Below, piece by piece: positions 38,081 to 61,979 of a stretch of DNA of 64,000 nucleotides. Numbering within the stretch: position 1 is the first letter of the stretch; every line of letters begins with the position of its first letter. A model generated the notes under the pieces. The model was given only the letters and a program-made list of their open reading frames with translations, was not told the origin of the DNA and searched no databases. Made by a program: the position numbers and the translations under genes. Origin of the DNA: Streptomyces sp. SCUT-3 (GTDB lineage Bacteria; Actinomycetota; Actinomycetes; Streptomycetales; Streptomycetaceae); contig NZ_CP046907.1 of assembly GCF_014083985.1 (NCBI RefSeq), positions 3,758,501 through 3,822,500 on the forward strand, read 5' to 3'.

Positions 38081-38108
38081 GGTGTGCATGCTCCTGTCCG
38101 TGGGGGTG

Positions 38109-40120: not shown

Positions 40121-42387
40121 GACGGGTTCCTTTCGAGTTCCTTCGTCTCCCCTCCGGCCGGGGACTCCTGCGGCATGAAGGCGTGGATCCAGCAGAGGAT
40201 GTCCCGGATCACGTGGTGGTCCTTGTTCGGCCGGAGAGCGCCGATCTGGTGGTACATGACCCCCTCGCTGGGCGGGCCCAGGAAGGTGATCCGGGGCTCG
40301 ACACTGCCATCTGCGCGGACCGGATGGAATTCGGGGGTGAGATCCAGGCCACCGGGGACGAAGTCGGGTTCTCCGACACCGGGGTTGACCCACTTGCGGA
40401 CGATGCCGCGGCGCAGCAGGTTCGGGTAGATCGGCATGACGTCGCGTTCGGCGTCGAAGCTGTGGACCCGGGCGTCGACGAGGGCGTCCGCGTACCGCAC
40501 GGCGCCGGTGACGGGGCTGCCGACCCGGAACAGGCCGCGCTCCTCGTCGCACTCCACCCGGGCGCCCGGACCGACCGAGATGTCGACCCGGCCGCTCTTG
40601 ATCAGCGCGGTGACCTTCTCCATCGCCTCCACCGAGGCGCCCTGGCACAGCCGGTTGTGGTGCGGGGTGTAGACGCCGAGGAAGGTGCGGTGCGAGGAGG
40701 CGAGCAGCCCGCCGAAGTCGACCGCTTCGATGACGACGCCGCGCATGTCGCGCCAGGCGGCGTCGGCGGCCGCCTTCGCCGGGTTGCTCAGATTGCCCTG
40801 GGAGGCCCAGCGGATGTCCCGGTCGAGGAAGTCGAGGAAGGTCTCGACGTACTCCTCGGGGCTCGCGTAGCCGGCTTCCGGCACCGGGACGGGGTTGATG
40901 GTCCGCTCCCAGGAGAACCGGTGCTCCGCCGCCCGCGTGGCGTGCCGCCACGGGGACTCGGCCGCGGCGACCGCGGCGGCGAAGGCCTGCGGGTCGCCGG
41001 CTTCGGAGAGCAGGGCTTCGGCCTGCTCCGCGCCGTACACGACCGTGAGGAAGGAGCGCACCGCCCGGTCGACCGGCGGCAGGCCGTCGGCGGACTCCCC
41101 GTCGAGGTGCGCCGCCTGCACGGTGCGGCCGGCCAGGACGTCGTCGACCCGCTCGGCGAGGCCCCGGGCCAGCTCCTCGACGGGCGCGACGAGGAAGGCG
41201 CCGGCCTCGTGGTGGTCCGCGAAGGCGTCGGCGTCGGCCAGGAACTTCTCGTACGCCGGCTGCGCGGCGCGCACCGCGGCCTCCCGGAACTCCGGCCCGT
41301 ACAGCACGCCGTACTGGATCAGCGCCATCTCCAGCAGGATCAGCGGGAAGACGTGCCGCTCGAAGTCGAGCTGGCGCTTGGGGGCGCCGCCGATGACGTT
41401 CGGCACGCCGACGGTCCGCCGCAGTTCGGCGACGGCCGCCGTGGTGAGGAAGGGGCCCTTGTACTCCAGGGCCGCGATGTCGCGTTCCTTCTCGTTGTAC
41501 GGCCGGGCGAAGGTGAACAGGCCGGAGCGGCTGAAGGCCACGATCGAGTCGGGTTCGGCGCCGCACGGGCGGTAGACGAGTTCGCCGTCCGCGTCGCGCT
41601 CGAACCTGCCGCCGCGGCCCTCGGTGAGGTACAGCAGCACGTCGATGCCGGTGAGCCCCATGCCCAGGCAGGCGACCGTCGTGCCCGGGCCGGTGTGCGC
41701 CGGGGTCAGCGACCGCTCCAGCGGGTACGCGGAGGGGATGAAGTGCGCCGGGTGCTCGGCGGAGAACCGGGCCAGGGGGGCCTGGCGCGGGTCCAGCTCC
41801 GGCCGGTTGGACGAGTGCCCGGTGAGCATGAGCACGTAGTCCGCCTCGTACGCGGGAGCGCCGTCGGCGGTGAGGACGGCGAACCGGTCGCCGCGCTCCT
41901 CCAGGTCGACGACCTCGGCCTGTCGCAGGGTCACCTCGACGCCCTCGACGGCGCGCAGGATCTCCACGTACACGGTGAACTGGTCGCGCAGGGCCTCACC
42001 GTGCACGAACCGCCTGGGCCAGTCCTCGGCGACCACGTCGTAGAGCGGGTCGCCGGTCTCCTCGAACTTCCTGCGGCACCACTGGAGCAGCGTGGGCCGC
42101 TCGCTCGTGGGGAGCAGGGGCCCCGCGTCGACCACGCTCTCGTCGGCGGCGAACGCCACCTGGCCGACGACCCGGTTGAGGTAGCTGGTCCTCGTCTGGT
42201 CGGGGCTGTGGACCTGGCCGGGCCCGAACTCCCCCGAGAGGTCGTAGATCACGATCTCCAGGGCGGCCGCCTCCCGGCGCCCGCGCACCAGGGCGGCGAG
42301 GCGTTCCAGGACGTACGTGCAGGTCGGGCCGCCGCCCACGATCGCCAGGTGGATCGGCGCAGCGTTCACGGAATTGTCGGTTGCCAC
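40117..42387 (-). CDS. Large FAD/NAD(P)-binding protein
   Basis: A 756-residue protein. The N-terminal Rossmann loop is HLAIVGGGPTCTYVLERLAAL, followed by YDLSGEFGPGQVHSPDQTRTSYLNRV, typical of the FAD-NAD(P)-binding (NAD_binding_9) family. A second nucleotide-binding loop is VACLGMGLTGIDVLLYLTEGRGG. The C-terminal 300 residues include RFSWERTINPVPVPEAG and VMYHQIGALRPNKDHHVIRD. GTG 42387 is chosen with GGAG upstream; starting at 42492 would run into the transaminase gene. It may oxidise or N-hydroxylate an amine intermediate. The substrate is not readable. Confidence 0.78.
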   Translation of the reverse strand: MATDNSVNAAPIHLAIVGGGPTCTYVLERLAALVRGRREAAALEIVIYDLSGEFGPGQVHSPDQTRTSYLNRVVGQVAFAADESVVDAGPLLPTSERPTLLQWCRRKFEETGDPLYDVVAEDWPRRFVHGEALRDQFTVYVEILRAVEGVEVTLRQAEVVDLEERGDRFAVLTADGAPAYEADYVLMLTGHSSNRPELDPRQAPLARFSAEHPAHFIPSAYPLERSLTPAHTGPGTTVACLGMGLTGIDVLLYLTEGRGGRFERDADGELVYRPCGAEPDSIVAFSRSGLFTFARPYNEKERDIAALEYKGPFLTTAAVAELRRTVGVPNVIGGAPKRQLDFERHVFPLILLEMALIQYGVLYGPEFREAAVRAAQPAYEKFLADADAFADHHEAGAFLVAPVEELARGLAERVDDVLAGRTVQAAHLDGESADGLPPVDRAVRSFLTVVYGAEQAEALLSEAGDPQAFAAAVAAAESPWRHATRAAEHRFSWERTINPVPVPEAGYASPEEYVETFLDFLDRDIRWASQGNLSNPAKAAADAAWRDMRGVVIEAVDFGGLLASSHRTFLGVYTPHHNRLCQGASVEAMEKVTALIKSGRVDISVGPGARVECDEERGLFRVGSPVTGAVRYADALVDARVHSFDAERDVMPIYPNLLRRGIVRKWVNPGVGEPDFVPGGLDLTPEFHPVRADGSVEPRITFLGPPSEGVMYHQIGALRPNKDHHVIRDILCWIHAFMPQESPAGGETKELERNPS

Positions 42388-42421: not shown

Positions 42422-43546
42422 TCAGGAATGCGAGGCCGCGCACCGGGCGACGACCTGGTCGAAGGCGCGGAAGAAGCCGGCGATGTCGTCACCGGTCAAC
42501 TGGCCCATGTTGGCGAGGCGGAACACCCCTGCGGACTTCTCCTGGGTCGCGTAGATCACGTAGCCGTGCTCCTTGAGCCCGTCGTGCAGTTCGTCGTACG
42601 TCATGCCGTTGGACAGGTGCGCGTTGGTGATCGAACCGGCCCGCCGGTCCGGCGGCAGGAGCAGCTCGATGCCGCGCTCCTCGAGACCGGCGCGGATCTC
42701 GGCGGCGCGGGCCGCGTAGCGTGCGGTCCGGGCCGGGACCCCCTCGGCGAGGGTGAGGTCGAGGGCCGCGTCGAGGGCGCGCAGCACCTGGACGGCCGGG
42801 GTGAACTGCGGGCTGCCCCCGAGGACCTGGGCGCGGTAGTTCGCCGACAGGTCGAAGTAGAAGGTGCGGGCGGGCACGTCCGCGAGCGCCTCGAGGCGCT
42901 CCCGGGGGGCGCAGACGAAGCTGATGCCCGGCATGCCCTCCAGGCACTTGTTGGCGGTGCCGACGCACCAGTCGACGTGGTCGCGGACGACGTCCAGGTC
43001 CTCGGCGCCGAGGCTGCTGATCGCGTCGACGATCAGGGAGCGCCTGTGGCGGGCGACCAGCGCGCCGAGTTCGCGCAGCGGGTTGAGCATGCCGGTGCTG
43101 GTCTCGTGGTGGACGACCGCGACGTGCGTGATGTCCGCGTCGGCGGCGAGCGCGCGGTCGACCGCGTCGAGGTCGACGGGGACGGCCCAGCCGAACTCCA
43201 GCCGCACGCAGGCGATGCCGTGGGTGTGCGCGATGCGCAGCAGCCGCTCGCCGTAGTGGCCGTTGTCGAGCACCAGCAGGCGGCCGTCGGCGGGGAGGAC
43301 CGAGCTGATCACGGCCTCCAGGGCGGCCGTGCCGGAGCCGGTGATCAGGACGGTGGCGTGGCTGTCCGGGCCGGCCCCGCACACTTCGGTGATCTTGCCG
43401 CCGACGCTGCCCAGGAGCGCCTGGGTCTCGGGTTCCCGGTGGCACTCGTCGGGGCCGGCCATGGCGGCGCGGACCCGGTCGTGCACGTTGACGGGCCCCG
43501 GGTTCAGCAGGACGACGCGGCCGGGCCGTCCGGTTGTGCCGGTCAT
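42422..43546 (-). CDS. phnW: PhnW-like 2-aminoethylphosphonate transaminase
   Basis: A 374-residue class-V PLP aminotransferase. The opening VVLLNPGPVNVHDRVRAAM...DECHREPE is the PhnW pattern that binds the phosphonate. Asp174 (LIVDAISSLGAED) contacts the pyridine nitrogen, and Lys200 in GTANKCLEGMPGISFV forms the internal aldimine. In a cluster with PepM and Ppd it should run in the biosynthetic direction, turning phosphonoacetaldehyde into 2-aminoethylphosphonate. ATG 43546 overlaps the kinase stop by 4 bases. Confidence 0.9.
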   Translation of the reverse strand: MTGTTGRPGRVVLLNPGPVNVHDRVRAAMAGPDECHREPETQALLGSVGGKITEVCGAGPDSHATVLITGSGTAALEAVISSVLPADGRLLVLDNGHYGERLLRIAHTHGIACVRLEFGWAVPVDLDAVDRALAADADITHVAVVHHETSTGMLNPLRELGALVARHRRSLIVDAISSLGAEDLDVVRDHVDWCVGTANKCLEGMPGISFVCAPRERLEALADVPARTFYFDLSANYRAQVLGGSPQFTPAVQVLRALDAALDLTLAEGVPARTARYAARAAEIRAGLEERGIELLLPPDRRAGSITNAHLSNGMTYDELHDGLKEHGYVIYATQEKSAGVFRLANMGQLTGDDIAGFFRAFDQVVARCAASHS

Positions 43547-44448
43547 GTGAGGTCCTCCTGGGACGGTTCGGCGGCGGCGGAGGCACGGCGCCGGATCAGG
43601 GTGCGGGGCACGTCGTGCGGCCAGGCGTCGAGCGGGGCGAAGAGGTGGCGCAGCCCCCCGGGGCCGCGGTCGCCGCGGGTGATGACGCACTCGGCGCCGC
43701 GGCGGGCGTGCGCGGCGAGCGCCTCGACCTTGCCCTCCATGGCTCCTGTGGCGTCCCACGCGTCGTCCCAGAACAGCTGCCGCACGGCGGTCAGGTCGTC
43801 GGGGTCGAGGTGCGGCAGCACGGGGCTGTCCGGGTCCTGCGCGAGGTGGATGCCGGACACGTCGGTGAGGGCGACGACCCGGACGGGGCCGGGGGCCGCG
43901 GCGGCGTCGAGCACCACACCGGGGACGTCGTCGCTGCTGAGGATGCGCAGGGTGCCGGCGGCGGTGACCACGCAGTCGCTGGACAGGACCGGCAGCGCAC
44001 CTTCGGCGAGGAGCCGGGACACCACACCGGTCTCGGTGACGACGGTGCCGTCGGGCAGCTCGTTGAGCATCGAGGTCGTCTGGAGCGGCACGGCCCGCAC
44101 CCCGCGGGCGCGGAGCGCGGTGGTCCACGCCCAGCGCATGCGGAAGGCCGGTTCGGTCAGGGCGACGGCCGCGTACGGGTCGTTCTCGGCCGCCTTGATC
44201 CGCAGGCCGACGGGGTGGCACAGGGCACCGCCCCCGGTGACCAGGACGATCCGGCCGGGGTGCTCGGCGACCAGCTCGGCGACCATGGCCGCGTACTCGT
44301 CGACGGCCGCGTGGTCGGTCTCCCCGCTGTGCCGCTTGTCGGAGAGGAGGCTGCCGCCGACCTTGAGGACGAGCAGCCCCGGCTCCCGGCCCGGTGCGGG
44401 CTCCCGGCCCGGCGCCGCGGCGGGGGCCGGGGGCACGGCGGCGGTCAC
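43543..44448 (-). CDS. Amino-acid-kinase-family kinase, FomA / isopentenyl phosphate kinase-like
   Basis: A 301-residue protein. Glycine loop LVLKVGGSLLSDKRH (Lys29, GGS 31-33) and LVTGGGALCHPVGL, whose His78 aligns with the catalytic histidine of isopentenyl phosphate kinase and the fosfomycin kinase FomA. The aspartate-rich nucleotide block is VVALTDVSGIHL, with the late lysine in TGAMEGKVEALAAHARRG. FomA phosphorylates a phosphonate as self-resistance, so the same role for this cluster's product, or a biosynthetic phosphonate activation, is likely. GTG 44448 overlaps the previous stop by 4 bases. The N-terminal 20 residues are Pro/Ala-rich. Confidence 0.83.
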   Translation of the reverse strand: MTAAVPPAPAAAPGREPAPGREPGLLVLKVGGSLLSDKRHSGETDHAAVDEYAAMVAELVAEHPGRIVLVTGGGALCHPVGLRIKAAENDPYAAVALTEPAFRMRWAWTTALRARGVRAVPLQTTSMLNELPDGTVVTETGVVSRLLAEGALPVLSSDCVVTAAGTLRILSSDDVPGVVLDAAAAPGPVRVVALTDVSGIHLAQDPDSPVLPHLDPDDLTAVRQLFWDDAWDATGAMEGKVEALAAHARRGAECVITRGDRGPGGLRHLFAPLDAWPHDVPRTLIRRRASAAAEPSQEDLT

Positions 44449-45602
44449 CGGAGCGGGACGTTGGAGACGGTCCCGGCGGTGTGCCGGCGGGCGTTGAACA
44501 GCCTCTCGAGGAAAGGCTGTTCCCAGCGGGCGCTCTGCCCGTCGAGGGAGCCGTACAGCTCCAGGTAGTCCGTGTCCTCGGGGCGCAGGGCGTCCAGGAC
44601 GTGCGCCGGGACGGCCTCCGGGTAGAGGACCGCGGTGAAGTGCAGCGCGTAGTACACGATCTCCTCGGCGCCGACCGACACGACCCGCTTGAGGAACCGC
44701 TGCCAGGCGTCCTCCCCGCAGCCCTCCGCCACCAGGGCGAGGTCGAGGAACTTGCTCAGCTGGAGGTCCTGGCGGTCCTCGATGAAGTGGAGACTGGTGG
44801 CCTCCTTGTGCAGGTGCGAGCAGAGGTCGAGGAGCCGGTCGTCGGGCGCGGGCTCCCAGGCGGGGGCGCCGCACAGGACGGCGGGCACGGCCCGGTCGAG
44901 CAGTTCGGCGGCGCCGGCGCTGATCCCGGACTTCTTCTGGAAGATGTCGTGGCAGATGTCGACGTTGAAGTCGGTGATGTCGGGGCGGCCGCCGGGCTTG
45001 CGGTACGGCAGCTGGTTGCTCAGGTTCATCTTCCAGAACGCCTGCGTCTCGCGGCTGTACGGCTCGATCCGCTCGCCGTCCTCGGCGACCCTGCCCTGGA
45101 TGTAGCCGAGGCGGAGCAGGACCTCGTGGGCGGCGCGCGCGTCCTCGCGGGACAGCAGCACGTCGAGGTCGGCGATGCGGCGCAGCGCCGGGTCGCGGTA
45201 CTCGCCCTCACCGAGGGAGAAGCCCTTGCGGACCGCGAACCTCAGTCCCGCGGAGGAGAGTTCGGCGAACACCCGGCCGAACTCGTCGGACAGGGCCTGG
45301 TTGCGGGCCCTGTTGGCGAGGTAGGCGCCGATGAAGACCCACGGGTAGGGGAAGCCCGGCTGCTCGCCGGCCTTGCGGTCCAGGCGGTGGCGGTCGACGT
45401 GCCGGCCGACCAGCGGCAGCAGCTTGTGCCAGGCGGCGGCCTCCAGGAAGGCGCCCCAGTCGAGGTCGGGGCTGCCCGCCAGCTCCCGGATCGCGGCGAC
45501 GTCGTCGGGGCCGAGGCGCAGCCGGGCCATCCTCAGCAGCAGCCGGGAGTGCGCGGGCAGGTCGTCGGCGGTCAGGTCACGAGAAGCGGTCTTGTCTGCC
45601 AT
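44445..45602 (-). CDS. Nucleotidyltransferase-family protein (NTP_transf_5 type)
   Basis: A 385-residue protein with the pattern FAVRKGFSLGEGEYRDPALRRIADLDVLLSREDARAAHEVLLRLGY. That is the G-x(n)-R-x-x-x-D-x-D arrangement of the PF14907-type nucleotidyltransferases. A long helical region precedes it (LLLRMARLRLGPDDVAAIRELAG) and a His-rich helical tail follows (LLDLCSHLHKEATSLHFIEDRQDL). Such proteins often accompany HprK-like kinases in lasso-peptide clusters, and here both occur in one phosphonate operon. ATG 45602 lies one base past the adenylation-enzyme stop. Confidence 0.75.
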   Translation of the reverse strand: MADKTASRDLTADDLPAHSRLLLRMARLRLGPDDVAAIRELAGSPDLDWGAFLEAAAWHKLLPLVGRHVDRHRLDRKAGEQPGFPYPWVFIGAYLANRARNQALSDEFGRVFAELSSAGLRFAVRKGFSLGEGEYRDPALRRIADLDVLLSREDARAAHEVLLRLGYIQGRVAEDGERIEPYSRETQAFWKMNLSNQLPYRKPGGRPDITDFNVDICHDIFQKKSGISAGAAELLDRAVPAVLCGAPAWEPAPDDRLLDLCSHLHKEATSLHFIEDRQDLQLSKFLDLALVAEGCGEDAWQRFLKRVVSVGAEEIVYYALHFTAVLYPEAVPAHVLDALRPEDTDYLELYGSLDGQSARWEQPFLERLFNARRHTAGTVSNVPLR

Positions 45603-45603
45603 G

Positions 45604-47301
45604 TCACACCTCTGCAGGGGACGTGCCGTCCTGCGCGAGTCGTCGCAGCGCACGGTGGTCGGTCTTGCCGTTGGGGGTCAGGGGGAGCGCGTCCAGCTCG
45701 GTGAGCCGGCGCGGCACCATCGCCTCGGGGAGGGAGTCGGCCAGGTGGGCGAGGAGCTCCTCGGGGGTCACGGGTCCGCGGACCGTGTAGTGGGCGGCGA
45801 GAACGGGGCGTCCGTCGACGACGGGCACGGTGACGGCCGCACGGTCGACGGCCGGGTGGCGCAGCAGCACGGCCTCGACCTCGTCGAGCTCCATGCGCAC
45901 GCCCGCGATCTTGACCTGGCGGTCGACCCGGCCGAGGTAGAGCACGACGCCCTCCTCGAAGCGGGCGAGGTCGCCCGTGCGGTAGAGCCGGCCGGTGGGC
46001 GAGTCCGGGTCCAGGGTGTCGGTGAAGAACGCGCGGGCATTGTTGTCGGGGTCGTTGACGTAGCCGAGTCCGACGACGACGCCGCCGACGAAGAGCTCCC
46101 CGGCCTCGCCGGGCCCGGCGGCCCGCCACGGGCCCCCGTCCTCCTCCTGCACCAGCAGGTAGAGCCGGGCGTTGGCGACGGGCCCGCCGACGGGCAGCCG
46201 CGGCCGGGCGGTGTCGGCGGCGGTCACCTCGTGGTGGGTGACGTCGTCGGAGCACTCGGTGGGCCCGTAGGCGTTCAGCAGGCGCACGTGGGGGAGGGCC
46301 GCGAGGGCGCGGGCGGCGAGCTCGGGGCGGAGCTCCTCGCCGGTGGAGATCAGCCGGCGCAGGGAGGGGAGCACCGGGCCCCGCCGCTCGGCCTCGCCGA
46401 CGAGCCAGCCGACGACGGTGGGGACGAGCTCGACCACGGTGACGCCGGTGCGCTCCAGGACGGTCCTCACGCGGCGCGGGAAGTCGAGGTCCTGCTGCTG
46501 TACGACCACGACGGCACCGCCGACGAGGAGGGGGGCGAGCATCTGCCAGACGGAGATGTCGAAGACCAGGGGTGCGGTGAACGCCAGCCGGTCGTCGGCG
46601 GTGAGCTCCAGGTCGGCGACCTTGGCCCACAGGTGGTTGACCATGCCGCGGTGCTCGACGGCCGCGCCCTTGGGGCGCCCGGTGGTGCCCGAGGTGAAGA
46701 TGCAGTACCGGGCCTCCGAGGACTGGTCGCGGCCGTCGGGGGTGTACGGGGCGACGGCGGCGTCCGGTCCCGGGGCGGCGACGACGGTGGTGCCGAGCCC
46801 GGCGGCCGCCTTGACGGCGGTCTCCCCGCCGTGACCGCCGTCAAGGCCGCCGGAGTTGTCGAGCAGGAACCCGGCCGCGCTGCGCCGGAGGACCTCGGTG
46901 ACCCGCTGGGCCGGCCAGTCGGTGGCGACGGGCAGGTAGACGGCCCCGAGCCCTTCGAGGGCGAGGAAGGCGGCGATCGTGTCCGCGCAGCGGTTGCCGA
47001 CGACGGCCACGACGCTGCCGGCGCCGCAGCCGGCCGAGGCGAGGGCGGCCCGGAACCGTGCGGCGCGGGTCAGCAGCCCGGGGTAGGTGAGGGTGGTGTC
47101 GCCGTCGACGACGGCGGGCGCGTCCGGGGTGGCGGCGGCGAAGCGCGCGACGTGGTGGAGGACGCCGGAGGCGGTGTCGAACTCCGCGGACCGGCCGAGG
47201 GAGAGCGCGGTGGCGCGGGCCGCGGCGCCCTCCGCGAGCGGCAGCGGGGCGAAGGCCGGCACGGCGGGGGCCGGGGAGGCGGCGGCGGGCCGGGGGGTCA
47301 T
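45604..47301 (-). CDS. Free-standing NRPS-type adenylation enzyme
   Basis: A 565-residue adenylation domain without carrier or condensation domain. A3 FTSGTTGRPKG (about 202-212), A4 FDISVWQ (247-253), A5 NAYGPTE (343-349), A7 YRTGDLA, A8 GRVDRQVKIAGVRMELDEVE and A10 lysine in PNGKTDHRAL. Aligned by eye to GrsA, the pocket residues read D-I-W-E-I-T-A-D-D-K. The extra acidic residues suit a substrate with a positively charged side chain, such as the diaminopropionate expected from the neighbouring genes. ATG 47301 overlaps the SbnB-like stop. The partner carrier is probably the protein at 37,811. Confidence 0.88.
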   Translation of the reverse strand: MTPRPAAASPAPAVPAFAPLPLAEGAAARATALSLGRSAEFDTASGVLHHVARFAAATPDAPAVVDGDTTLTYPGLLTRAARFRAALASAGCGAGSVVAVVGNRCADTIAAFLALEGLGAVYLPVATDWPAQRVTEVLRRSAAGFLLDNSGGLDGGHGGETAVKAAAGLGTTVVAAPGPDAAVAPYTPDGRDQSSEARYCIFTSGTTGRPKGAAVEHRGMVNHLWAKVADLELTADDRLAFTAPLVFDISVWQMLAPLLVGGAVVVVQQQDLDFPRRVRTVLERTGVTVVELVPTVVGWLVGEAERRGPVLPSLRRLISTGEELRPELAARALAALPHVRLLNAYGPTECSDDVTHHEVTAADTARPRLPVGGPVANARLYLLVQEEDGGPWRAAGPGEAGELFVGGVVVGLGYVNDPDNNARAFFTDTLDPDSPTGRLYRTGDLARFEEGVVLYLGRVDRQVKIAGVRMELDEVEAVLLRHPAVDRAAVTVPVVDGRPVLAAHYTVRGPVTPEELLAHLADSLPEAMVPRRLTELDALPLTPNGKTDHRALRRLAQDGTSPAEV

Positions 47302-48359
47302 GACGCCCCCGCGCTCTGGTGGCGGTCCAGCTCGTGGAAGAAGCCGTCGACGGCGACGGCCTCCCCGGCGGCGACGGCCGTCCGGTGGACGTGGGCGCCG
47401 ACGACGAGGTCGAGGATGCCGAGTCCGAAGGGGGAGAACACCACGGTCCGGTCTGCGGGGGCGGTGAGGCCGCCGGTGAGCACGTCGTACAGCGTGCCGT
47501 GCAGGAAGTCCCTGTTTCCGGTGCGCTGTTCGGCCAGGTGCACCGAGGTGTCGGCCTTCAGCACGTGCTCGACGTCGTCGACGATGTTGACGCTGTCCAG
47601 GATGACGTCGGTGCCCAGGTCGCGCAGCGAGACGTGGAGGACCAGCGGGTTGTGGGAGAACCAGTCCGGGTCGTTCACGTGGGGCACGGCGGCGGTGGTG
47701 GCGAAGACGACCAGGTCGCAGGAGCGGACGAGGTCCTCGGCGGAGGTGTGGACGCGGACCGGCCGACCGGTGGGCTCCAGGACCTGCCGGGCGAAGGAGG
47801 AGGCGTAGTCGCCGCTCAGGTCGAAGGCGTGGTACTCGTCCACGTCCCAGGCGAGTTCGGCCAGGTACTCCTGGATGAACCGGGCGATCAGGCCGGTGCC
47901 GAAGAAACCGATGCGGCGGGGTGTGCTGCCGCGCCCGGCGGCGATCCGGCGGGCCGCGGCGGCGGCCGACGCGGCGGTGCGCACCGCGCTGATGATGGAC
48001 CCCTCCAGGCAGGCGTAGGGGTAGCCGGTGGCCGGGTCGTTGAGCAGCAGGACGGCCGAGGCGCGCGGGATGCCCCGCTCCAGGTTGGAGGGGAAGCTGG
48101 AGATCCACTTGATGCCGTCCACGCCGTCGGCGTCGTCCGTCCCGCCGACCGAGGCCGGCAGGGCGATGATCCGGGCGGTGGGCCGGTCGGGGAACCGCAG
48201 GAAGTACGAGGGCGGGTTGACGGTGCCGCCCTCGCCGTGGCGCCGGTAGGCGTCCTCCACCAGGTCGACGACCTCGGCCCGGCGCCCCTCGAGGCTGCGG
48301 TGCACCGCAGCGCCGGGTACGACGGAGAACCGCGGGGGCCCGCCCTGCTGCTCAGCCAT
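47298..48359 (-). CDS. sbnB: SbnB-like N-(2-amino-2-carboxyethyl)-L-glutamate dehydrogenase
   Basis: A 353-residue ornithine-cyclodeaminase-fold enzyme. The NAD+-binding loop is RIGFFGTGLIARFIQEYL, with VDGIKWISSFPSNLERGIPRASAVLLLND and EGSIISAVRTAA as family blocks. SbnB enzymes oxidatively split the SbnA product to L-2,3-diaminopropionate and 2-oxoglutarate. The start is ATG 48359, overlapping the SbnA-like gene by 8 bases. That tight pairing with an SbnA homologue is the best support for the specific function. Generic ornithine cyclodeaminase is the alternative. Confidence 0.88.
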   Translation of the reverse strand: MAEQQGGPPRFSVVPGAAVHRSLEGRRAEVVDLVEDAYRRHGEGGTVNPPSYFLRFPDRPTARIIALPASVGGTDDADGVDGIKWISSFPSNLERGIPRASAVLLLNDPATGYPYACLEGSIISAVRTAASAAAAARRIAAGRGSTPRRIGFFGTGLIARFIQEYLAELAWDVDEYHAFDLSGDYASSFARQVLEPTGRPVRVHTSAEDLVRSCDLVVFATTAAVPHVNDPDWFSHNPLVLHVSLRDLGTDVILDSVNIVDDVEHVLKADTSVHLAEQRTGNRDFLHGTLYDVLTGGLTAPADRTVVFSPFGLGILDLVVGAHVHRTAVAAGEAVAVDGFFHELDRHQSAGAS

Positions 48360-49326
48360 TGCTCTCTTCCTGTTCCTTGTCGAGGTCGCCGTAGGTGCTG
48401 CGCACCCAGGCGTCGTCGTAGACCGTTTCGATGTAGCGGTCGCCCATGTCGGCGGAGATGGCCACCGAGGTGAGGGTGGAGCCGGGGTCGTGCTGCTCCA
48501 GCCAGCGGGCGGCGCCGCTGACGACGGTTCCGGTGGAGCCGCCCAGGAGGAACCCGTGCCGGGCGAGACGACGGCACATCCGCACGGTGTCGTGCTCGTG
48601 GACCCGGACCACCTGGTCCACCCGGGCGGCCTCGATCAGGGGCATCGGCTCGCTGGCGCCGAGGCCCGGCAGGTAGCGGGGGCCGGAGGGCATGCCGAAG
48701 TTGACCGAGCCCACGGTGTCCACCGCGACGATCCGCACGCCGGGGCGGTTGTCCCGGAACCACCGGGCGCAGCCGGTGAGGGTGCCGCCGGTGCCGGCGC
48801 CGATGAACAGCACGTCGAGACCGGGGAACCGCTTGGCGATCAGCGGCGCGGTGTTCTCGTAGTGGGCCAGCCAGTTGGCGGGGTTCTCGTACTGGTTGAG
48901 CCACACGTAGCCGGAGTTGCGGGAGCACAGCTCACGGACGAGTGCCTTGCGGGCGGTCAGGTAGCTGCCGTCCGCGTCGGGCCGGTCGACGACGACGACC
49001 TCGCTGCCGAGGGCCCGCATGAGCTTGACGGTCGCGGGGTTGCACTTGGGGTCGGTGACACAGACGAACCGCAGGGAGCGGGCGGCCGCGACCACGCTGA
49101 GCGCCACTCCGAGGTTTCCGGAGGACGATTCGACGAGGGTGGAGTGCTCGTCGACCAGGCCGTTCCGGACGGCCGACGTGATCATGGAGGTGGCGGCCCT
49201 GAGCTTCACAGAGCCGGCGAAGTTGAAACCCTCGCACTTGAGGTGCAACGGGATGCGGAGCGTGTGTCCGAGGTCGACGTAGACGTCGCTGTCGAACAGT
49301 TCGTCCGCTGTGGAGATGATGGCCAA
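48352..49326 (-). CDS. sbnA: SbnA-like 2,3-diaminopropionate biosynthesis protein (PLP, cysteine-synthase fold)
   Basis: A 324-residue fold-type II PLP enzyme. Lys41 in NFAGSVKLRAA binds PLP, SSSGNLG (67-73) is the substrate loop, and GAGTGGTLTGCARW is the phosphate loop. SbnA joins O-phospho-L-serine and L-glutamate to N-(2-amino-2-carboxyethyl)-L-glutamate. The start is TTG 49326; no ATG or GTG lies close. It is 49 bases downstream of pepM. The SSSGNLG loop, instead of the TSGNTG of cysteine synthases, supports the SbnA assignment. Confidence 0.88.
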   Translation of the reverse strand: MAIISTADELFDSDVYVDLGHTLRIPLHLKCEGFNFAGSVKLRAATSMITSAVRNGLVDEHSTLVESSSGNLGVALSVVAAARSLRFVCVTDPKCNPATVKLMRALGSEVVVVDRPDADGSYLTARKALVRELCSRNSGYVWLNQYENPANWLAHYENTAPLIAKRFPGLDVLFIGAGTGGTLTGCARWFRDNRPGVRIVAVDTVGSVNFGMPSGPRYLPGLGASEPMPLIEAARVDQVVRVHEHDTVRMCRRLARHGFLLGGSTGTVVSGAARWLEQHDPGSTLTSVAISADMGDRYIETVYDDAWVRSTYGDLDKEQEESNG

Positions 49327-49375
49327 GAGTCGTTTCCGCTTCTTTCGTCCCGCCCCCTACGGTCCGTCCCGGCGA

Positions 49376-50236
49376 TCAGACGTCGAGCTTCTGCCATGCC
49401 TCCAGGCGCTGCAGGGCGAAGATGTCCTGGACGGAGGCGATGGAGTTCTCGACCGCCGTGGAGTCGCCGGTCTCGTAGACGGAGCGGTAGGTCTCGCGCA
49501 GCGCGCTGACGGTGGCGCGCAGCCCCTGGTTGGCGTAGATGACCACGGAGACGCCGGCCTGCTTGATCTCGTCGATGTGCCAGTTCGGATAGGTCGTCGG
49601 CACGATGACCACCGGGCAGCGGAAGTCCCAGCCCTCCAGGAACCCGACGATCTGGTCGCGGGTCTTCGTCTTGGAGTGGACGAGGACCGCGTCCGCGCCG
49701 GCGTCGGCGTAGGCGCGGCAGCGTTCGAGGGCCGCTTCGACGTCGAGCCCGCTGATGAGGGCCTCGGTGCGGGCGATGACGAACATCTCCCGGGTGGCCT
49801 GGGCCCCCTTGGCGATGCGGATCTTGTCGACGAACTCCTTGGTGCCGAGAAGGGTCTGACCGCCTGCGACGAAGCTGTTCATCTTGGGGAACAGCTTGTC
49901 CTCGATGCAGATCGCGGTGATGCCGGCCGCCTCGAACTCGTGGACCATGTGCGCCACGTTGAGGTTGCCGCCGTATCCGGTGTCGCAGTCGGCGACGACC
50001 GGGATCCGCAGCGCTTTTTGGATGTTGGCAGCCGCCTCGAGGTACTCGGTCATGCTCAGGATGCTCGCGTCGGGCAGAGCGCGTGACGCCGACACCTCGA
50101 GGCTGGACGACCAGACGGCCTGGAATCCGGCCTCCTCTGCGAGCAGCCCTCCGAGGGCGTGGTTGGCACCCGCCACACGAACAATTTCGTTCTCGGCCAG
50201 AACAGAGCGAAATGAAGGATAGGTGGACCGCTGCAC
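49376..50236 (-). CDS. pepM: Phosphoenolpyruvate phosphomutase
   Basis: A 286-residue isocitrate-lyase-superfamily enzyme that forms the C-P bond, turning phosphoenolpyruvate into phosphonopyruvate. The diagnostic PepM motif EDKxxxxxNS is EDKLFPKMNS (112-121). The Mg2+ aspartates are in VVADCDTGYGG (83-85), and the substrate contacts VWSSSLEVSASRALPD precede them. The start is GTG 50236, with AGGAG eight bases upstream. It is the first gene of the leftward half and defines the region as a phosphonate cluster. The 138-base leader from the inferred promoter carries three inverted repeats. Confidence 0.96.
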   Translation of the reverse strand: MQRSTYPSFRSVLAENEIVRVAGANHALGGLLAEEAGFQAVWSSSLEVSASRALPDASILSMTEYLEAAANIQKALRIPVVADCDTGYGGNLNVAHMVHEFEAAGITAICIEDKLFPKMNSFVAGGQTLLGTKEFVDKIRIAKGAQATREMFVIARTEALISGLDVEAALERCRAYADAGADAVLVHSKTKTRDQIVGFLEGWDFRCPVVIVPTTYPNWHIDEIKQAGVSVVIYANQGLRATVSALRETYRSVYETGDSTAVENSIASVQDIFALQRLEAWQKLDV

Positions 50237-50496: not shown

Positions 50497-51468
50497 ATGA
50501 GCACCACGCTCGTACCCGCGCACCCCCGCACCCTGGAGGTTCCGACAGAGGCTTTCCACACCTTCTCCGAGCAGGCGCAGCGCGAGGTCGCCGCCTACGT
50601 CGCCCGGCTCGACCGGGACTTCCCCACGGGCCGCGTCGACGCGATCGACGTCGACCTCGGCGCCGTCCCGCTCTTCACGGCGGAGGTCGACGCCGTCCGC
50701 CACGTCGTCGACGACACCGTGCACTTCATCGTGTACGACCGCGTCGCCGGCGTGGACAGTCTCCGGGGACAGGCGCTGTACGCCTGGGTCCTCGGCACCG
50801 CCCTCGGCCGGCCCATGGTCCAGAACACCGACGGCTGGCGGCTGATCGAGGTCTACGACCGGGGCGTCCGCAGGACCATCGAGGACGGCGCCCGCTACCA
50901 CCAGACCAAGCAGGGCTCGTACATGCACAACGACGCCGTCAACGACGTCGACCCCATCGACTACCTGCTGCTGTCCTGCGGCCAGTCCGCCTACATCGGC
51001 GGCGAGAGCATCCTCGTGGACGCCAAGCCCGTCCACGAGGTCCTGGAGCGGCACCCGGACGTCCTCGCCGTCCTCACCCAGGACTTCTGGTTCGAGAAGC
51101 GCGGCATGTCGCTGTCGGAGGAGACCGGCTTCTTCCGCTCGCCGATCATCCGCTACACCGCGGACGGCGAACCCCTGGTCCGCTACTTCCGCACCTACAT
51201 CGAGGTCGCCCACGACAAGGTCGGCGAGCCCGTCACCGACGAGCAGCGTGCCGCGCTCGACTTCTTCGACGCCGTGCTCGACCAGTCCTCGGTGCAGTAC
51301 CGCGTCCGCCTGGAGCGCGGGCAGACCCTGGTCTCCGCCGACGACCGCTTCCTCCACACGCGCACGGCGTTCTACGACCGCTTCCCGCCCCGCGAGATCG
51401 ACATGGCCGGCGACCGGACGGACGAGGTCAACCGCTACATGTTCCGGATGTGGTCCACCAAGGCCTGA
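50497..51468 (+). CDS. Fe(II)/2-oxoglutarate-dependent dioxygenase (TauD/TfdA family)
   Basis: A 323-residue double-stranded beta-helix oxygenase. Iron ligands: HxD in GSYMHNDAVND (His144, Asp146) and distal His287 in DDRFLHTRTAFYDRF, followed by the 2-oxoglutarate arginine. GQALYAWVLGTALGRPMVQN is the typical N-terminal block. In phosphonate pathways such enzymes hydroxylate or desaturate aminoethyl- or hydroxyethyl-phosphonates, so C1 or C2 hydroxylation of 2-aminoethylphosphonate or of a Dap residue is the likely job. ATG 50497 is the start, with GAGAGGAA upstream. First gene of the rightward operon. Confidence 0.87.
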   Translation: MSTTLVPAHPRTLEVPTEAFHTFSEQAQREVAAYVARLDRDFPTGRVDAIDVDLGAVPLFTAEVDAVRHVVDDTVHFIVYDRVAGVDSLRGQALYAWVLGTALGRPMVQNTDGWRLIEVYDRGVRRTIEDGARYHQTKQGSYMHNDAVNDVDPIDYLLLSCGQSAYIGGESILVDAKPVHEVLERHPDVLAVLTQDFWFEKRGMSLSEETGFFRSPIIRYTADGEPLVRYFRTYIEVAHDKVGEPVTDEQRAALDFFDAVLDQSSVQYRVRLERGQTLVSADDRFLHTRTAFYDRFPPREIDMAGDRTDEVNRYMFRMWSTKA

Positions 51469-51516: not shown

Positions 51517-52890
51517 ATGCACCCGCGTGAGGCCCTCCGGGCGGTGGGCCACGACCTGGCCGCCGAGCTCCGGCGGAACCGCCCGAAGGACCAGTTGGCC
51601 GCGTCCGGCGAGGTGCAGGCCTGGCACCGCACCAGCGGCCGGCTCGCCGAGGGCCGCGTCAGCGACATCAGCGTGCAGTGGGGACAGGCCACCGCGGCGC
51701 GGTACGTCACGCGCGAGACGTTCCTGCACCGCTCCGTCTCCGGCTTCGACCCGTCCGTGGCCCGGACCGCCGCCGGGGGCGGCGGCACCGCCCCGGACGG
51801 CTCCCGGGCCGCCGGCGCCGGCCTCCACGACCCCGGGCCCGGCCGGGCCCCCGCCTGGACCGAACCTGGTGCGGCACTCACCGCCCTGCGCGAACTCGAG
51901 CAGGCCGCCCGCGACTTCGACCCCACCGTCGCCCAGGTCGTCATCGACTTCGAACTCGCCGAACAGGACCTCTGCCTCGTCGACTCCGAGGGCCTCGTGC
52001 ACGACGAGACCCGGCTGCTCAGCTACCTCACGGTCCGCGTCATCGCCCGCAAGGGCGGCCGCGTCGCCACCGGCTTCTACACCCCCGGCGTCAGCGGCCC
52101 CCTCTCCGGCATCGACATGCGTGCCGCCGGGGCCGAGGTCGCCCGCCGCGCCGTCACTGGCCTGGCGGCCCGGCCCGCCCCCGTCGGCCGGATGCCCGTC
52201 GTCGTCGCCGGCGGCCGCGGCATGGTCCTGCTCCACGAGGCGTGCTGCCACCCGCTGGAGGGCGACGAGGTGCTGCGCGGCTCCGTCTACGCCGGACGGA
52301 TGGGCGAGACCATCGCCTCCCCGCTGGTCACCCTCAGGGACGACCCCACCGTCCCGGGCGCCGTCGGCTCGTACGCCTACGACGACGAAGGGGTGCGTGC
52401 CACCCCCACCACCCTGATCGAGGACGGCGTCCTCACCGGCTGGCTCACCGACCAGGAGTCCGCTGCGCGGCTGGGCCTCGCACCGAGCGGCAACGGCCGC
52501 TGCACCACGGCCCTCCAGCCGCCCCAGCCGCGCATGACCAACACCTGTCTCGCCGCCGGCACCTCCACCGTCGACGAGATCATCGCCTCCACCGAGTACG
52601 GCATCTACGCCGAACACGTCGGCGGCGGCGAAGTCATCGAATCCACCGGCGAGTTCACCTTCCGGGTGACCAACGGCCATCTGATCGAGAACGGGCGGGT
52701 CACCGACCCCGTCGAGGAGACCACCATCACGGGAACGGGAACACAGGTGCTGAGGGACATCGACGCCGTCGCCGACGACAGCACGGTGGGCGCGGCCAAG
52801 TGCGGCAAGTTCGGCCAGTGGGTGACGGTCGGCGTCGTCGGACCGACTCTCCGGGTCGGCTCCCTCCTGGTGGGAGGCACGAACCGATGA
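51517..52890 (+). CDS. tldD: TldD-like metalloprotease subunit
   Basis: A 457-residue TldD/PmbA-family protein. The catalytic zinc motif HExxxH is HEACCH (240-245) in MVLLHEACCHPLEGDEVLRG, and the late cysteine block is KCGKFGQWVTVGVVGP. In E. coli TldD pairs with TldE in a heterodimer that trims unfolded or leader peptides inside a chamber. ATG 51517 has AAGGAGA upstream. It overlaps the TldE-like gene by 4 bases. The pair may remove a leader or protecting peptide or act on a phosphonopeptide; other chemistry is possible. Confidence 0.87.
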   Translation: MHPREALRAVGHDLAAELRRNRPKDQLAASGEVQAWHRTSGRLAEGRVSDISVQWGQATAARYVTRETFLHRSVSGFDPSVARTAAGGGGTAPDGSRAAGAGLHDPGPGRAPAWTEPGAALTALRELEQAARDFDPTVAQVVIDFELAEQDLCLVDSEGLVHDETRLLSYLTVRVIARKGGRVATGFYTPGVSGPLSGIDMRAAGAEVARRAVTGLAARPAPVGRMPVVVAGGRGMVLLHEACCHPLEGDEVLRGSVYAGRMGETIASPLVTLRDDPTVPGAVGSYAYDDEGVRATPTTLIEDGVLTGWLTDQESAARLGLAPSGNGRCTTALQPPQPRMTNTCLAAGTSTVDEIIASTEYGIYAEHVGGGEVIESTGEFTFRVTNGHLIENGRVTDPVEETTITGTGTQVLRDIDAVADDSTVGAAKCGKFGQWVTVGVVGPTLRVGSLLVGGTNR

Positions 52891-54248
52891 CCGCCTCCCG
52901 GGAACACACCGCCGGCGTCGGGACGAGGACCTGCGCGAGCGAGGTCCTCCTCGCCGAGGCCGCACGGCACGGCGCCGACGCCGAGGTCTGGACCGCCCGG
53001 CACGAGACCGACGAACTCGTCTGCCGCGCCGGGACCGTCGAACGCCGCAGCGAGGTCTCCTCCGGCGCCACCGCGCTGACCGTGTGGGCCGAGGGCAACG
53101 AGGGCTACGCCGTCCGCAACGCCCCCGGCGCCACCGACCCCGCCCTGGTCACCACCGCCCTCGACGTCGGCCGCGTCCTCGCCGCCGGGAACGCGGTCCC
53201 CGCCCCCCGGGCGGACCGCGCCCCCCGCACCCCCGCGGCGGCCCCCCCGCCCCGGATCGGCGCCGACGCCGCCGAACGCCTGCGCGCCCTCACCGGGGGC
53301 GCCGGCGACCTGGAGGTCGAGCTGCGGGCCCGTGCCGACCGCACCCGCGTCCGGCTCCACCGCGCGGGCACCGGCCCCGCCGAGTACGACACCGGCGTCG
53401 CGCAGCTCTTCGTCCGGATCACCGCCCGCGGAGAGGGCACCGGCTACATCGGCCACCAGCTCTTCGGCCGCACCGTGGAGGAACTCCTCGACGAAGCCGA
53501 GCGCACCGAACTGCCCGGACTCACCTCCCTCGCCCGGGTCCTCGCCTCCCGGCCCGCCACCGCCCTGGACCACGACGACCTGCTCGTCGACGGCCGGGTG
53601 CTCTCCCGGCTGCTCACCCTCGTCGCCCCCGCGTTCCTCCTCGACTCCGTCCTCGAGGGCCGCTCGCCGCTGAAGGACCGCGTCGGCGAACGCGTCGCCT
53701 CACCCGGTGTCACGCTCCTCGACGACCCCACGTCCGCGGACTGCCCGCTCCCCACCCCCTGGGACGGGGAGGGGACCCCCACCGGCCCCACCGTGCTCGT
53801 CGAGGACGGCATCCTGCGCGGCTTCCTCTCCTCCCGCCGCACCGCCGCCGCGGCGGGCGCGCCCGCCACCGGCTCCGCCCACCGCGGCGCCAACGGGGAG
53901 ATGCCGACCGTCCAGCCCGGCCACCTCCTGCTGAGCCACACCGACGACCTGGGCACCGAGGTCCGCCCCGGCCGCACCGTGCTCCACGTGGTCCAGGCCA
54001 ACGGCGCCCACACCTCCAACCCCATCACCGGGGACTTCTCCATCGGCGCCAACGCCGTGCTCGTCGCCCCCGACGGCACCCGGCGCAACGCAGGCAACAC
54101 CACCCTCGCCGGCAACGTCTTCGAACTGCTCCGCTCCATCGACGGACACGACGGCCGCGTCCGGGTGAACCGCAGCAACAACTCCTTCATAGCCGGCCCC
54201 GGCGTCTGGACCCGCAGCCTCACCGTCGGCCACCAGGACAGCGCATGA
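52887..54248 (+). CDS. tldE: TldE/PmbA-like partner protein
   Basis: A 453-residue PmbA/TldE homologue lacking HExxxH, as expected for the non-catalytic partner. Recognisable parts: VELRARADRTRVRLHRAGTG in the N-terminal domain, SPLKDRVGERVASPGVTLLDDP in the middle, and GDFSIGANAVLVAPDGTRRNAGNTTLAGNVFELLRSI near the end. Start ATG 52887 overlaps the TldD stop and its own stop overlaps the MFS start (ATGA both times), so the genes are coupled. About residues 95-140 form a Pro/Ala-rich linker. Confidence 0.84.
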   Translation: MTASREHTAGVGTRTCASEVLLAEAARHGADAEVWTARHETDELVCRAGTVERRSEVSSGATALTVWAEGNEGYAVRNAPGATDPALVTTALDVGRVLAAGNAVPAPRADRAPRTPAAAPPPRIGADAAERLRALTGGAGDLEVELRARADRTRVRLHRAGTGPAEYDTGVAQLFVRITARGEGTGYIGHQLFGRTVEELLDEAERTELPGLTSLARVLASRPATALDHDDLLVDGRVLSRLLTLVAPAFLLDSVLEGRSPLKDRVGERVASPGVTLLDDPTSADCPLPTPWDGEGTPTGPTVLVEDGILRGFLSSRRTAAAAGAPATGSAHRGANGEMPTVQPGHLLLSHTDDLGTEVRPGRTVLHVVQANGAHTSNPITGDFSIGANAVLVAPDGTRRNAGNTTLAGNVFELLRSIDGHDGRVRVNRSNNSFIAGPGVWTRSLTVGHQDSA

Positions 54249-55504
54249 GCCTCCTGAAGAACCCCGAGTTCCGCCTGTTCTGGGGCGCGCAGACGGTCAG
54301 CATGGTCGGCACCAACATGACCAGGGTCGCCATCCCGCTCCTCGCGGCCGGCACCCTGTCCGCCACCCCGTTCCAGATGGGGCTGCTCCAGGCCGCGCAG
54401 ACGGTGGCCTTCCTCCTCGTGGGCCTGCCCGCGGGCGTCTTCGTCGACCGGTCGCGGCGCCGCCCGATCCTCATCGTCTGCGACCTGCTGCGGGCCCTGC
54501 TGATGGCGGTGATCGTCCTCGGCTTCGTCCTCGACCTGGTCACGTTCCACGCCCTGCTCGCAGTGACGCTCCTCGTCGGCCTCGCCACCGCGTTCTTCGA
54601 GATCGCCTACCAGTCGTACATCCCCGTCGTCGTCGGCAGGAACAACCTGGTCGAGGGCAACGCCCGGCTGGAGAGCACCAACGCGGTCTCCCGGCTGGCC
54701 GGCCCCACCCTCGGCGGCGGGCTGGTCCAGCTCGCCGGCGCCGTCGCCACCGTCTCCGTCCAGGCCGCCACCCACGTCGTGTCCGCGTTCCTGCTCTCCC
54801 GCATCCGCACGCCCGAGGCGGTCCCGGAGCGCACCGAGCGGCGCCGCATGGGCGCCGAGATCCGCGAGGGCCTCCGGTTCGTCCTGCGCGAACCGGTCTT
54901 CCGGGCCATCACCGGCTCCGCCGCCACCTACAACTTCTTCTACGCGGTCTCCCTGCCGCTGGTGATGCTGCTGCTGGTCGACGAGATGGGGCTGTCCGGC
55001 ACCGCCGTCGGCGTCCTGATGGCCGTCAGCGGCGTCGGCGGGGTGCTCGGAGCCTCCTTCGCCGACCGCCTGGGCCGCCGGTTCGGCCAGGTGCGCATGA
55101 TGTGGACCTCGTACCTGCTGACCGTGCCCACCGCGCTGCTCATCCCGTTCGCCGAGAGCGGCTGGCGGAGCCTGCTGTTCGCCGTGCCCTGGTTCGTCAT
55201 GAGCTTCGGGATCGTCGTCTACAACGTCGGGCAGGTCAGCATCCGGCAGCAGCTGTGCCCGCCGGAGCTGCTCGGCCGGATGAACGCCAGCGTGCGCTTC
55301 CTCGTCTGGGGAATCCTGCCGCTCGGCTCGATCGCCGGCGGGGCCCTGGGCGAGTGGCTCGGGGTCCGCGGCGCCCTGCTCGTCGGCGGCATCGGCATGA
55401 GCGCGGGCGTCCTGTGGCTGGTCCTCTCCCGGCTGCGCCCCCTGCGTGACATCCCCGCACCCGAGGAGTCCCCGTCGGCGGACGGCACTCCCCTGCGCGC
55501 CTGA
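54245..55504 (+). CDS. Major facilitator superfamily exporter
   Basis: A 419-residue protein with about twelve transmembrane helices of the MFS_3/enterobactin-exporter type. The loop-2/3 motif is LVGLPAGVFVDRSRRRPILIVCDLLRAL. The second half has GVLGASFADRLGRRFGQVRMMW, the matching cytoplasmic loop motif. It probably exports the phosphonate product. Its tail is hydrophilic. ATG 54245 is within the tldE stop. It lies between the TldE-like protein and the first ATP-grasp gene, so it is part of the operon. Confidence 0.88.
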   Translation: MSLLKNPEFRLFWGAQTVSMVGTNMTRVAIPLLAAGTLSATPFQMGLLQAAQTVAFLLVGLPAGVFVDRSRRRPILIVCDLLRALLMAVIVLGFVLDLVTFHALLAVTLLVGLATAFFEIAYQSYIPVVVGRNNLVEGNARLESTNAVSRLAGPTLGGGLVQLAGAVATVSVQAATHVVSAFLLSRIRTPEAVPERTERRRMGAEIREGLRFVLREPVFRAITGSAATYNFFYAVSLPLVMLLLVDEMGLSGTAVGVLMAVSGVGGVLGASFADRLGRRFGQVRMMWTSYLLTVPTALLIPFAESGWRSLLFAVPWFVMSFGIVVYNVGQVSIRQQLCPPELLGRMNASVRFLVWGILPLGSIAGGALGEWLGVRGALLVGGIGMSAGVLWLVLSRLRPLRDIPAPEESPSADGTPLRA

Positions 55505-55545
55505 GACGTGCCCCACCCTCCTGGAACGACCGAATGGAGTACCCA

Positions 55546-58333: not shown

Positions 58334-58366
58334 CCCCGCCACGAGAAAGATTTGGGAGTACGAAAG

Positions 58367-61893: not shown

Positions 61894-61942
61894 TTGTCAC
61901 AATGTGTCGGGGGAGCTAGAATAGCTCCCCCGACACATTGTG
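61894..61942 (+). promoter_or_regulatory. Regulator promoter inside a 20-bp perfect inverted repeat
   Basis: TTGTCA (61894-61899), 17-base spacer, TAGAAT (61917-61922). A perfect inverted repeat, 61898-61917 and 61923-61942, is centred on the -10 element, with only AGAAT between the arms. It could be an autoregulatory operator or, in RNA, a hairpin ending the peptide transcript. No T-run follows on either strand. Confidence 0.6.
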
Positions 61943-61979
61943 TGGAGCATTGGACGAAACCCTCGAAGACGGTGGTCGC

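Follow-up and report, generated by a model that had tools for sequence, protein, structure and literature searches.

Why does a phosphonate gene cluster carry its own genes for the amino acid L-2,3-diaminopropionate (Dap)? We addressed this question for a 64,000 nucleotide stretch of Streptomyces sp. SCUT-3 (assembly GCF_014083985.1, contig NZ_CP046907.1, positions 3,758,501 to 3,822,500; "the window"), in which SbnA- and SbnB-like genes directly follow pepM, the gene for phosphoenolpyruvate phosphomutase. Our analysis indicates that SbnA and SbnB very probably make Dap inside a phosphonate cluster. We further consider it fairly likely that the product is a phosphonopeptide in which Dap is joined to a phosphonate derived from 2-aminoethylphosphonate (AEP), made by the whole pathway proposed below. 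The four central genes are as follows.

49376..50236, minus strand: pepM, phosphoenolpyruvate phosphomutase (PF13714 186 bits; TIGR02320 281 bits, cut-off 320; EDKLFPKMNS; top PDB match 5unc, a phosphoenolpyruvate phosphomutase)
48352..49326, minus strand: SbnA-type pyridoxal phosphate (PLP) enzyme, O-phosphoserine and glutamate to N-(1-amino-1-carboxyl-2-ethyl)-glutamic acid (ACEGA) (TIGR03945 366 bits, cut-off 350; K47, R132 and Y152 of Staphylococcus aureus SbnA kept, S185 replaced by G)
47298..48359, minus strand: SbnB-type NAD enzyme, ACEGA to Dap (TIGR03944 388 bits, cut-off 327)
45604..47301, minus strand: stand-alone adenylation (A) enzyme, predicted for Dap (TIGR01733 342 bits; code DIWEITADDK; homologue fused to SbnB in loci L100 and L185)

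The SbnA-like open reading frame (324 amino acids, TTG start) runs from 49326 to 48352 on the minus strand and contains LVESSSGNLGVAL; the SbnB-like frame (353 amino acids) runs from 48359 to 47298 on the same strand. The two share 8 bases (48352-48359), and 49 bases lie between the pepM stop (49376) and the SbnA start. An earlier note on this DNA had described two adjacent SbnA/SbnB-like genes with an 8-base overlap, 49 bases after pepM, and both the coordinates and LVESSSGNLGVAL are confirmed. The same note had taken the pair for Dap synthesis genes. TIGR03945 (SbnA) and TIGR03944 (SbnB) are curated NCBI equivalog models for this synthesis, and the two proteins bear the assignment out, with 366.1 bits against TIGR03945 (equivalog cut-off 349.95) and 388.1 bits against TIGR03944 (equivalog cut-off 326.9). 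A housekeeping CysK was excluded for the SbnA-like protein, which reaches at most 183 bits with cysteine synthase models, and an ornithine cyclodeaminase or alanine dehydrogenase was excluded for the SbnB-like protein (at most 102 bits); the trees speak against both as well. The PLP lysine K47 and the residues R132 and Y152 of S. aureus SbnA are kept in the window protein. Since R132 and Y152 are also present in some housekeeping paralogues in the alignment, they were dropped as proof of SbnA identity.

In the trees, SbnA and SbnB of the window fall into a supported actinobacterial group, beside their orthologues from other phosphonate clusters. SbnA joins these orthologues and then L045 and L100 (support 100/98 and 100/96), for SbnB, the group consists of the orthologues and L045, with support of 96 in the part of the large tree read and 89/94 in the small one. 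Because gene order and reading frames are conserved in other species, the SbnA-SbnB-pepM arrangement is not due to chance.

At its stop, the SbnB gene shares 4 bases with the gene for the A domain (47301-45604). The pocket code of the A domain, D-I-W-E-I-T-A-D-D-K, had been read by eye in the earlier note; reading by motif position gives the same letters, and the code is identical in the orthologues L041, L042, L043 and L044. Loci were retrieved by similarity to SbnB and not to the A domain, and 80 of 152 SbnB loci were kept. An A domain with a code of the type D[IV]W[EQ]xT[AT]DD is present in 69 of the 80, and 70 of the 84 complete A-domain codes read there are of this type; incomplete codes were counted as misses, and the window A domain served as query, which biases the count toward similar pockets. 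Several of the 11 loci without a complete code of the type are short contigs. Two loci, L100 (Streptomyces sp. McG3) and L185 (G004), encode SbnB fused to the A domain in a single reading frame (887 and 886 residues, respectively), and the A domain of the L100 fusion has the same pocket as the window enzyme. SbnB releases Dap, and its fusion to an A domain of this pocket is therefore the best single argument for Dap as the substrate. The models, the neighbourhood counts, the SbnB-A fusions and the conservation together support a Dap-type A domain, and the predicted substrate is quite probably Dap itself. For Streptomyces albulus, the part of PMC4668381 that was consulted describes both an A domain specific for Dap and a Dap synthesis by two enzymes; a literature search for the code letters returned no paper. 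The pocket DIWQSTADDK was read in 47 of the A domains that accompany SbnB in the 80 loci; many of these lie in frames of about 1100 residues. A stand-alone A domain with the same pocket, divergent from SbnA/SbnB, is found in six Actinomadura-type loci (L082, L084, L092, L102, L104, L119), and in L102 and L119, the two whose genes were listed, it also adjoins a large frame resembling a nonribosomal peptide synthetase.

The cluster around the pair recurs. Four of the 80 SbnB loci carry it, namely Streptomyces californicus NRRL B-2098 (L041), S. hokutonensis (L042), S. bikiniensis NRRL B-1049 (L043) and Dactylosporangium aurantiacum NRRL B-8018 (L044). In addition, 9 of 391 genomes of the order, SCUT-3 included, encode a kinase of the FomB family, like that of the cluster, above the model cut-off, and about 40 kb (31 kb once) were read around FomB in the other eight and around one weaker match. 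Within the stretches read, G134, G094 and G285 keep the arrangement in full. We took G094 and L041, and likewise G285 and L042, to be the same genomes, so that five distinct other genomes were read (G134, G094/L041, G285/L042, L043, L044). Gene calls outside the window come from a simple in-house caller, and starts may be wrong. In D. aurantiacum a core of 17 genes is kept: condensation-like protein, carrier, PNPOx, TauD, PepM, SbnA, SbnB, A domain, NTP_transf_5, FomA-like kinase, AEP aminotransferase, flavin enzyme, MDMPI, two phosphonopyruvate decarboxylase (Ppd) halves, FomB and EamA. Contig bases 12000-49578 of 49578 (37.6 of 49.6 kb) of this strain gave no match to the ATP-grasp, TldD/E and transporter genes of the major facilitator superfamily (MFS) in the window.

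That the pair lies next to pepM understates the case; it is the whole cluster, with kinases, flavin N-oxygenase, carrier and condensation-like protein, that gives the finding its meaning. The phosphonate part consists of pepM and the following genes.

43543..44448, minus strand: FomA-like kinase (FomA 3d40 156 bits; NF000338 166 bits, cut-off 550)
42422..43546, minus strand: AEP aminotransferase (TIGR03301 355 bits, cut-off 361)
40117..42387, minus strand: flavin N-oxygenase of the CreE/FzmM/PcxL family, phosphonate-linked branch (PF13454; 8cp2 134 bits; Arg core kept, Asp chamber changed)
38660..39211, minus strand: Ppd, N-terminal half (TIGR03845/TIGR03297, under cut-offs)
38109..38657, minus strand: Ppd, C-terminal half (TIGR03846/TIGR03297, under cut-offs)
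36738..37814, minus strand: FomB-family phosphonate monophosphate kinase (NF000361 585 bits, cut-off 400)

PepM (50236-49376, minus strand) carries EDKLFPKMNS, which corresponds to what we take to be the PepM signature, EDKx5NS; with this motif and the two Ppd halves the locus qualifies as a PepM-type phosphonate cluster. The FomB-family kinase lies far above its model cut-off (585.2 bits against NF000361, cut-off 400), and the best solved relative of the FomA-like kinase is FomA (156 bits).

The flavin enzyme is a distant relative of the aspartate N-hydroxylase 8cp2 (134 bits). Its closest relative outside this cluster family, L172 (56%), has no pepM match in 20 kb, and another relative, L173, has no pepM match either. 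The next relatives (46-48% identity) are encoded directly after an AEP aminotransferase in seven pepM clusters (L166, L167, L168, L169, L170, L171, L174) with the order pepM, two Ppd regions, aminotransferase, flavin enzyme; no SbnA/SbnB matches were found in the stretches read of these seven. The 8cp2 residues N62, R266, R409 and R412 are kept in the window enzyme. W51, N413 and R416 are replaced by H, G and I in the window and by H, S and S in all seven pepM-linked relatives. Among 18 further homologues aligned (L172 and L173 apart), R416 is kept in all 18 and W51 in 15, and N413 varies. The roles of these residues are those assigned in the consulted part of PMC10404684. Because the residues of the Asp chamber differ, the substrate has presumably changed from Asp. 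According to the same part of that paper, PcxL, which belongs to the same family, forms the oxime 2-hydroxyiminoethylphosphonate, so that AEP or 1-hydroxy-AEP would be the natural candidate substrate. An L-Asp N-hydroxylase that supplies nitrite was set aside, with N413 and R416 replaced by G and I and no CreD-type lyase recognised in the cluster. In some of the seven clusters, neighbouring genes, by reading, seem to encode a PlsC-type acyltransferase and a membrane protein resembling fatty-acid hydroxylases, which hints at a phosphonolipid or nitrilaphos-like pathway there.

The cluster unites two sub-pathways that are found apart elsewhere: pepM-ppd-AEP aminotransferase-flavin N-oxygenase occurs without Dap genes in the seven other pepM clusters, and SbnA-SbnB-A-carrier occurs in L-alanosine-like and other clusters. 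To these the cluster adds a TauD oxygenase, a condensation-like protein and kinases resembling FomA and FomB. Outside phosphonate clusters, the SbnA-SbnB-A set closest to that of the window is found in S. hiroshimensis (L045), with 65% (SbnA), 69% (SbnB) and 59% (A domain) identity to the window proteins. It is accompanied by acyl-CoA-dehydrogenase-like, small carrier-like and AraC-type proteins, a nitrate reductase (687 bits against the NasC model, below its cut-off, 1100) and the first part of a nitrite reductase. Compared with the layouts in the part of PMC11705231 consulted, L045 appears to be an L-alanosine-like cluster. The likewise non-phosphonate loci L100 and L185 have carrier proteins with 60 and 69% identity over about 50 residues and condensation-like regions with 28-29%. 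L185 also encodes an NTP_transf_5 relative (46%) and, by reading, an acyl-CoA-dehydrogenase-like protein.

Downstream of SbnB, the minus strand carries, in this order, the A domain, NTP_transf_5, FomA-like kinase, AEP aminotransferase, flavin enzyme, MDMPI/DinB, two Ppd halves, carrier, FomB and EamA. The plus strand upstream of pepM carries TauD, TldD, TldE, a transporter, three ATP-grasp ligases and PNPOx, and the condensation-like gene lies between ligases 1 and 2. The genes not yet listed are these.

44445..45602, minus strand: NTP_transf_5 putative nucleotidyltransferase (PF14907 147 bits; relative with 46% beside the Dap genes of non-phosphonate L185)
39377..40120, minus strand: MDMPI/DinB (mycothiol S-transferase-like) protein (TIGR03083 92 bits, PF11716)
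37811..38089, minus strand: carrier protein with GMDSL serine (PF00550; NF005480 77 bits, cut-off 72)
35890..36741, minus strand: EamA-type transporter (PF00892; kept in the Dactylosporangium cluster)
50497..51468, plus strand: TauD-family oxygenase (PF02668; closest PDB entry FrbJ 5eqn)
51517..52890, plus strand: TldD-like protein (PF19289 210 bits)
52887..54248, plus strand: TldE/PmbA-like protein (PF19289 155 bits)
54245..55504, plus strand: MFS-type transporter (named by reading the open reading frame; kept in G134 and G094)
55534..56814, plus strand: ATP-grasp L-amino-acid ligase 1 (PF13535, PF18603)
56819..58333, plus strand: condensation-like protein (PF00668 40 bits; SHVAVDA for HHxxxDG)
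58352..59617, plus strand: ATP-grasp ligase 2, weak DdaF similarity (PF13535, PF18603; NF041595 23 bits)
59698..60909, plus strand: ATP-grasp ligase 3, start uncertain (PF13535 81 bits and PF18603 84 bits on the enclosing frame)
60913..61542, plus strand: PNPOx-fold protein (PF01243 70 bits; 69% in D. aurantiacum)
61938..63215, plus strand: helix-turn-helix regulator, probable cluster edge (named by reading the open reading frame)

From these genes we propose the following pathway. PepM, the split Ppd and the PhnW-type aminotransferase would produce AEP, as judged by homology and conserved order. The flavin enzyme would N-oxygenate AEP or 1-hydroxy-AEP, probably to an oxime or hydroxylamine in the manner of PcxL/HpxL, and the TauD enzyme may hydroxylate a carbon. 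SbnA and SbnB, identified by the equivalog models, would supply Dap. The code, the operon order and the SbnB-A fusions suggest that the stand-alone A domain activates Dap and loads it onto the carrier 38089-37811, from which the condensation-like protein could move it onto the amine, hydroxylamine or oxime of the phosphonate. In the Streptomyces version, the ATP-grasp ligases may attach further residues and TldD/E may trim or modify the product. Given the FomB-family match, the FomA- and FomB-like kinases would phosphorylate the phosphonate and thereby shield the producer. An ATP-grasp ligase as the Dap-joining step was demoted as a candidate, with D. aurantiacum lacking a match to the window ligases in the contig part read. 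The earlier note had named Dap as a building block of the phosphonate. Of this claim, Dap synthesis and a Dap-type A domain are supported; incorporation is the most likely reading, and we expect Dap to be present in the final phosphonate with reasonable probability. More tentatively, and possible rather than probable, the cluster would represent the first family of Dap phosphonopeptides, in which a stand-alone condensation protein would attach carrier-tethered Dap of the alanosine type to AEP or 1-hydroxy-AEP that had been N-oxygenated to an oxime or hydroxylamine, and phosphorylation of the FomA/FomB type would keep the finished warhead harmless to the producer.

Several observations weigh against this proposal. 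PepM is above the PF13714 cut-off (186.4 bits) and stays under that of TIGR02320 (280.6 bits, cut-off 319.55); both Ppd halves and the AEP aminotransferase are under their equivalog cut-offs, and the FomA-like kinase is far under that of NF000338 (165.6 bits, cut-off 550). In the condensation-like protein the usual motif is without its first histidine and reads SHVAVDA in the window and the two orthologues read and SHMAVD in L044. In SbnA, S185, one of the O-phosphoserine residues whose roles we took from the consulted part of PMC12414870, is G in 70 of 71 rows counted, the window among them. The S. californicus draft (L041, G094:C19) has an interrupted SbnA frame, in which two SbnA pieces flank a short SbnB-like piece; this is either a draft-assembly error or a real lesion. 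The earlier note had named a position outside the SbnA/SbnB clades as a refutation; the pair lies inside the actinobacterial TIGR03944/TIGR03945 group, but the tested S. aureus SbnA/SbnB and capreomycin CmnK sit on long branches with no firm joining point to it, and no biochemically tested SbnA/SbnB falls within the resolved part of the trees. The pocket, which the earlier note had called suited to Dap, has a code of the Dap/Dab type (Dab, L-2,4-diaminobutyrate) and does not on its own separate the two, since the Dap codes given in the consulted part of PMC12283262 share 80% identity with Dab codes. A DNA pattern for the pocket tail NAYGPTECSDD gave 60 sites in 47 of the 391 genomes, of which at least 27 (22 genomes) lie within 35 kb of SbnB among the SbnB matches listed, with four SbnB places of this cluster added by hand. 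The association from SbnB to pocket is thus strong and that from pocket to SbnB weaker, as expected if Dab enzymes have the same pocket (PMC12283262, in the part consulted). The SCUT-3 genome itself speaks for the proposal: its only other such site is 8 kb away from another SbnB that exceeds the cut-off. The second SbnB/SbnA pair of this genome, accompanied by a pocket tail of this type, is located outside the window (G000:C1:2415624-2423900), and Dap may also be produced by another pathway in the strain.

How Dap is used leaves room for other explanations. It might be loaded but serve as an intermediate only, oxidised on the carrier as in the N3-hydroxylation proposed for L-alanosine, so that the product holds a rearranged or fragmentary Dap unit. 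The layout of L045, the nearest non-phosphonate set, fits L-alanosine clusters (PMC11705231, in the part consulted), and a flavin N-oxygenase is present in the same operon of the window. However, none of the 24 window genes read was recognised as acyl-CoA-dehydrogenase-like, and the relatives of the flavin enzyme follow the AEP aminotransferase in the seven other clusters and not SbnA/SbnB, which makes this route rather unlikely.

It is improbable that the A domain activates Dab or another small basic amino acid and that the SbnA/SbnB product is used elsewhere in the pathway. Dab and Dap codes are alike (PMC12283262, same part), and up to 33 of the 60 sites with this pocket tail are not near SbnB among the SbnB matches listed; but the A domain gene overlaps the SbnB stop, its relatives are fused to SbnB in two clusters, and none of the 24 cluster genes was recognised as Dab-forming. 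Finally, the SbnA-SbnB-A set could be a separate small pathway that merely happens to be located here, as most of the 80 loci have the set but no pepM match. Its position between pepM and the kinases in five of the five other genomes with the cluster read, one of them in a different family, renders such a coincidence highly improbable. We favour a phosphonopeptide that contains Dap.

This proposed phosphonopeptide cluster shares parts with several known systems. With the Dap synthesis of the staphyloferrin B and capreomycin type it shares the two-enzyme family over the TIGR03945/TIGR03944 cut-offs and SbnA residues K47, R132 and Y152; it differs in the G at S185, in the low scores of S. aureus SbnB (99 bits) and CmnK (95 bits), and in that no siderophore synthetase was recognised beside the window pair. 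L-alanosine (ala/aln) clusters likewise combine SbnA and SbnB with a separate carrier and with an A domain whose pocket is of the type seen in the window, and the nearest non-phosphonate tree neighbour, L045, is alanosine-like in appearance, whereas the window has pepM and phosphonate genes and no acyl-CoA-dehydrogenase-like, cupin or nitrate/nitrite reductase genes. Phosphonocystoximate and hydroxynitrilaphos (PcxL, HpxL), compared by their descriptions, also use the AEP route followed by a flavin N-oxygenase of the same broad family, but no Dap step was met in the parts of the pathway descriptions consulted. Fosfomycin clusters share the FomB-family kinase over the cut-off and the FomA-like kinase; in contrast to them, the window has the AEP route and peptide genes, and no fosfomycin methyltransferase or epoxidase was recognised. 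Dapdiamides are built with Dap from an SbnA/SbnB-type pair and by ATP-grasp ligation, and they are not known to contain a phosphonate; ATP-grasp ligase 2 of the window is weakly similar to DdaF (23 bits, cut-off 840). Phosphonoalamides and other ATP-grasp phosphonopeptides have ATP-grasp ligases in a pepM cluster as well, but use phosphonoalanine, and the consulted part of PMC11867202 does not mention an A domain, carrier or Dap gene.

An amino acid joined to a pepM-derived unit is a known kind of product; the combination of Dap and phosphonate was not found in print. The search for a Dap-containing phosphonate covered open-access literature, which makes the null result weak evidence of absence, and host names paired with phosphonate or pepM gave nothing relevant in the same literature. 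Phosphonates have proven themselves as a source of antibiotics, and predicted building blocks offer a basis for choosing among pepM clusters in genomes. From the present cluster, an unusual amino acid can be predicted together with a loading system of its own and a means of self-protection, and the cluster recurs in the collection strains S. californicus NRRL B-2098, S. bikiniensis NRRL B-1049 and D. aurantiacum NRRL B-8018, so that it is directly testable. The Dap-loading module itself apparently moves between unrelated pathways.

The remaining FomB neighbourhoods fall into two groups. G252, G035 and G186 have FomB alone or scattered matches. G374, G091 and G312 have pepM and FomA/FomB-like genes and no SbnA/SbnB matches; in G091:C48 (L031, L032) and G312:C8 (L033, L034) these genes are accompanied by an aminotransferase and TauD, and the two clusters possibly belong to another kinase-protected phosphonate family.

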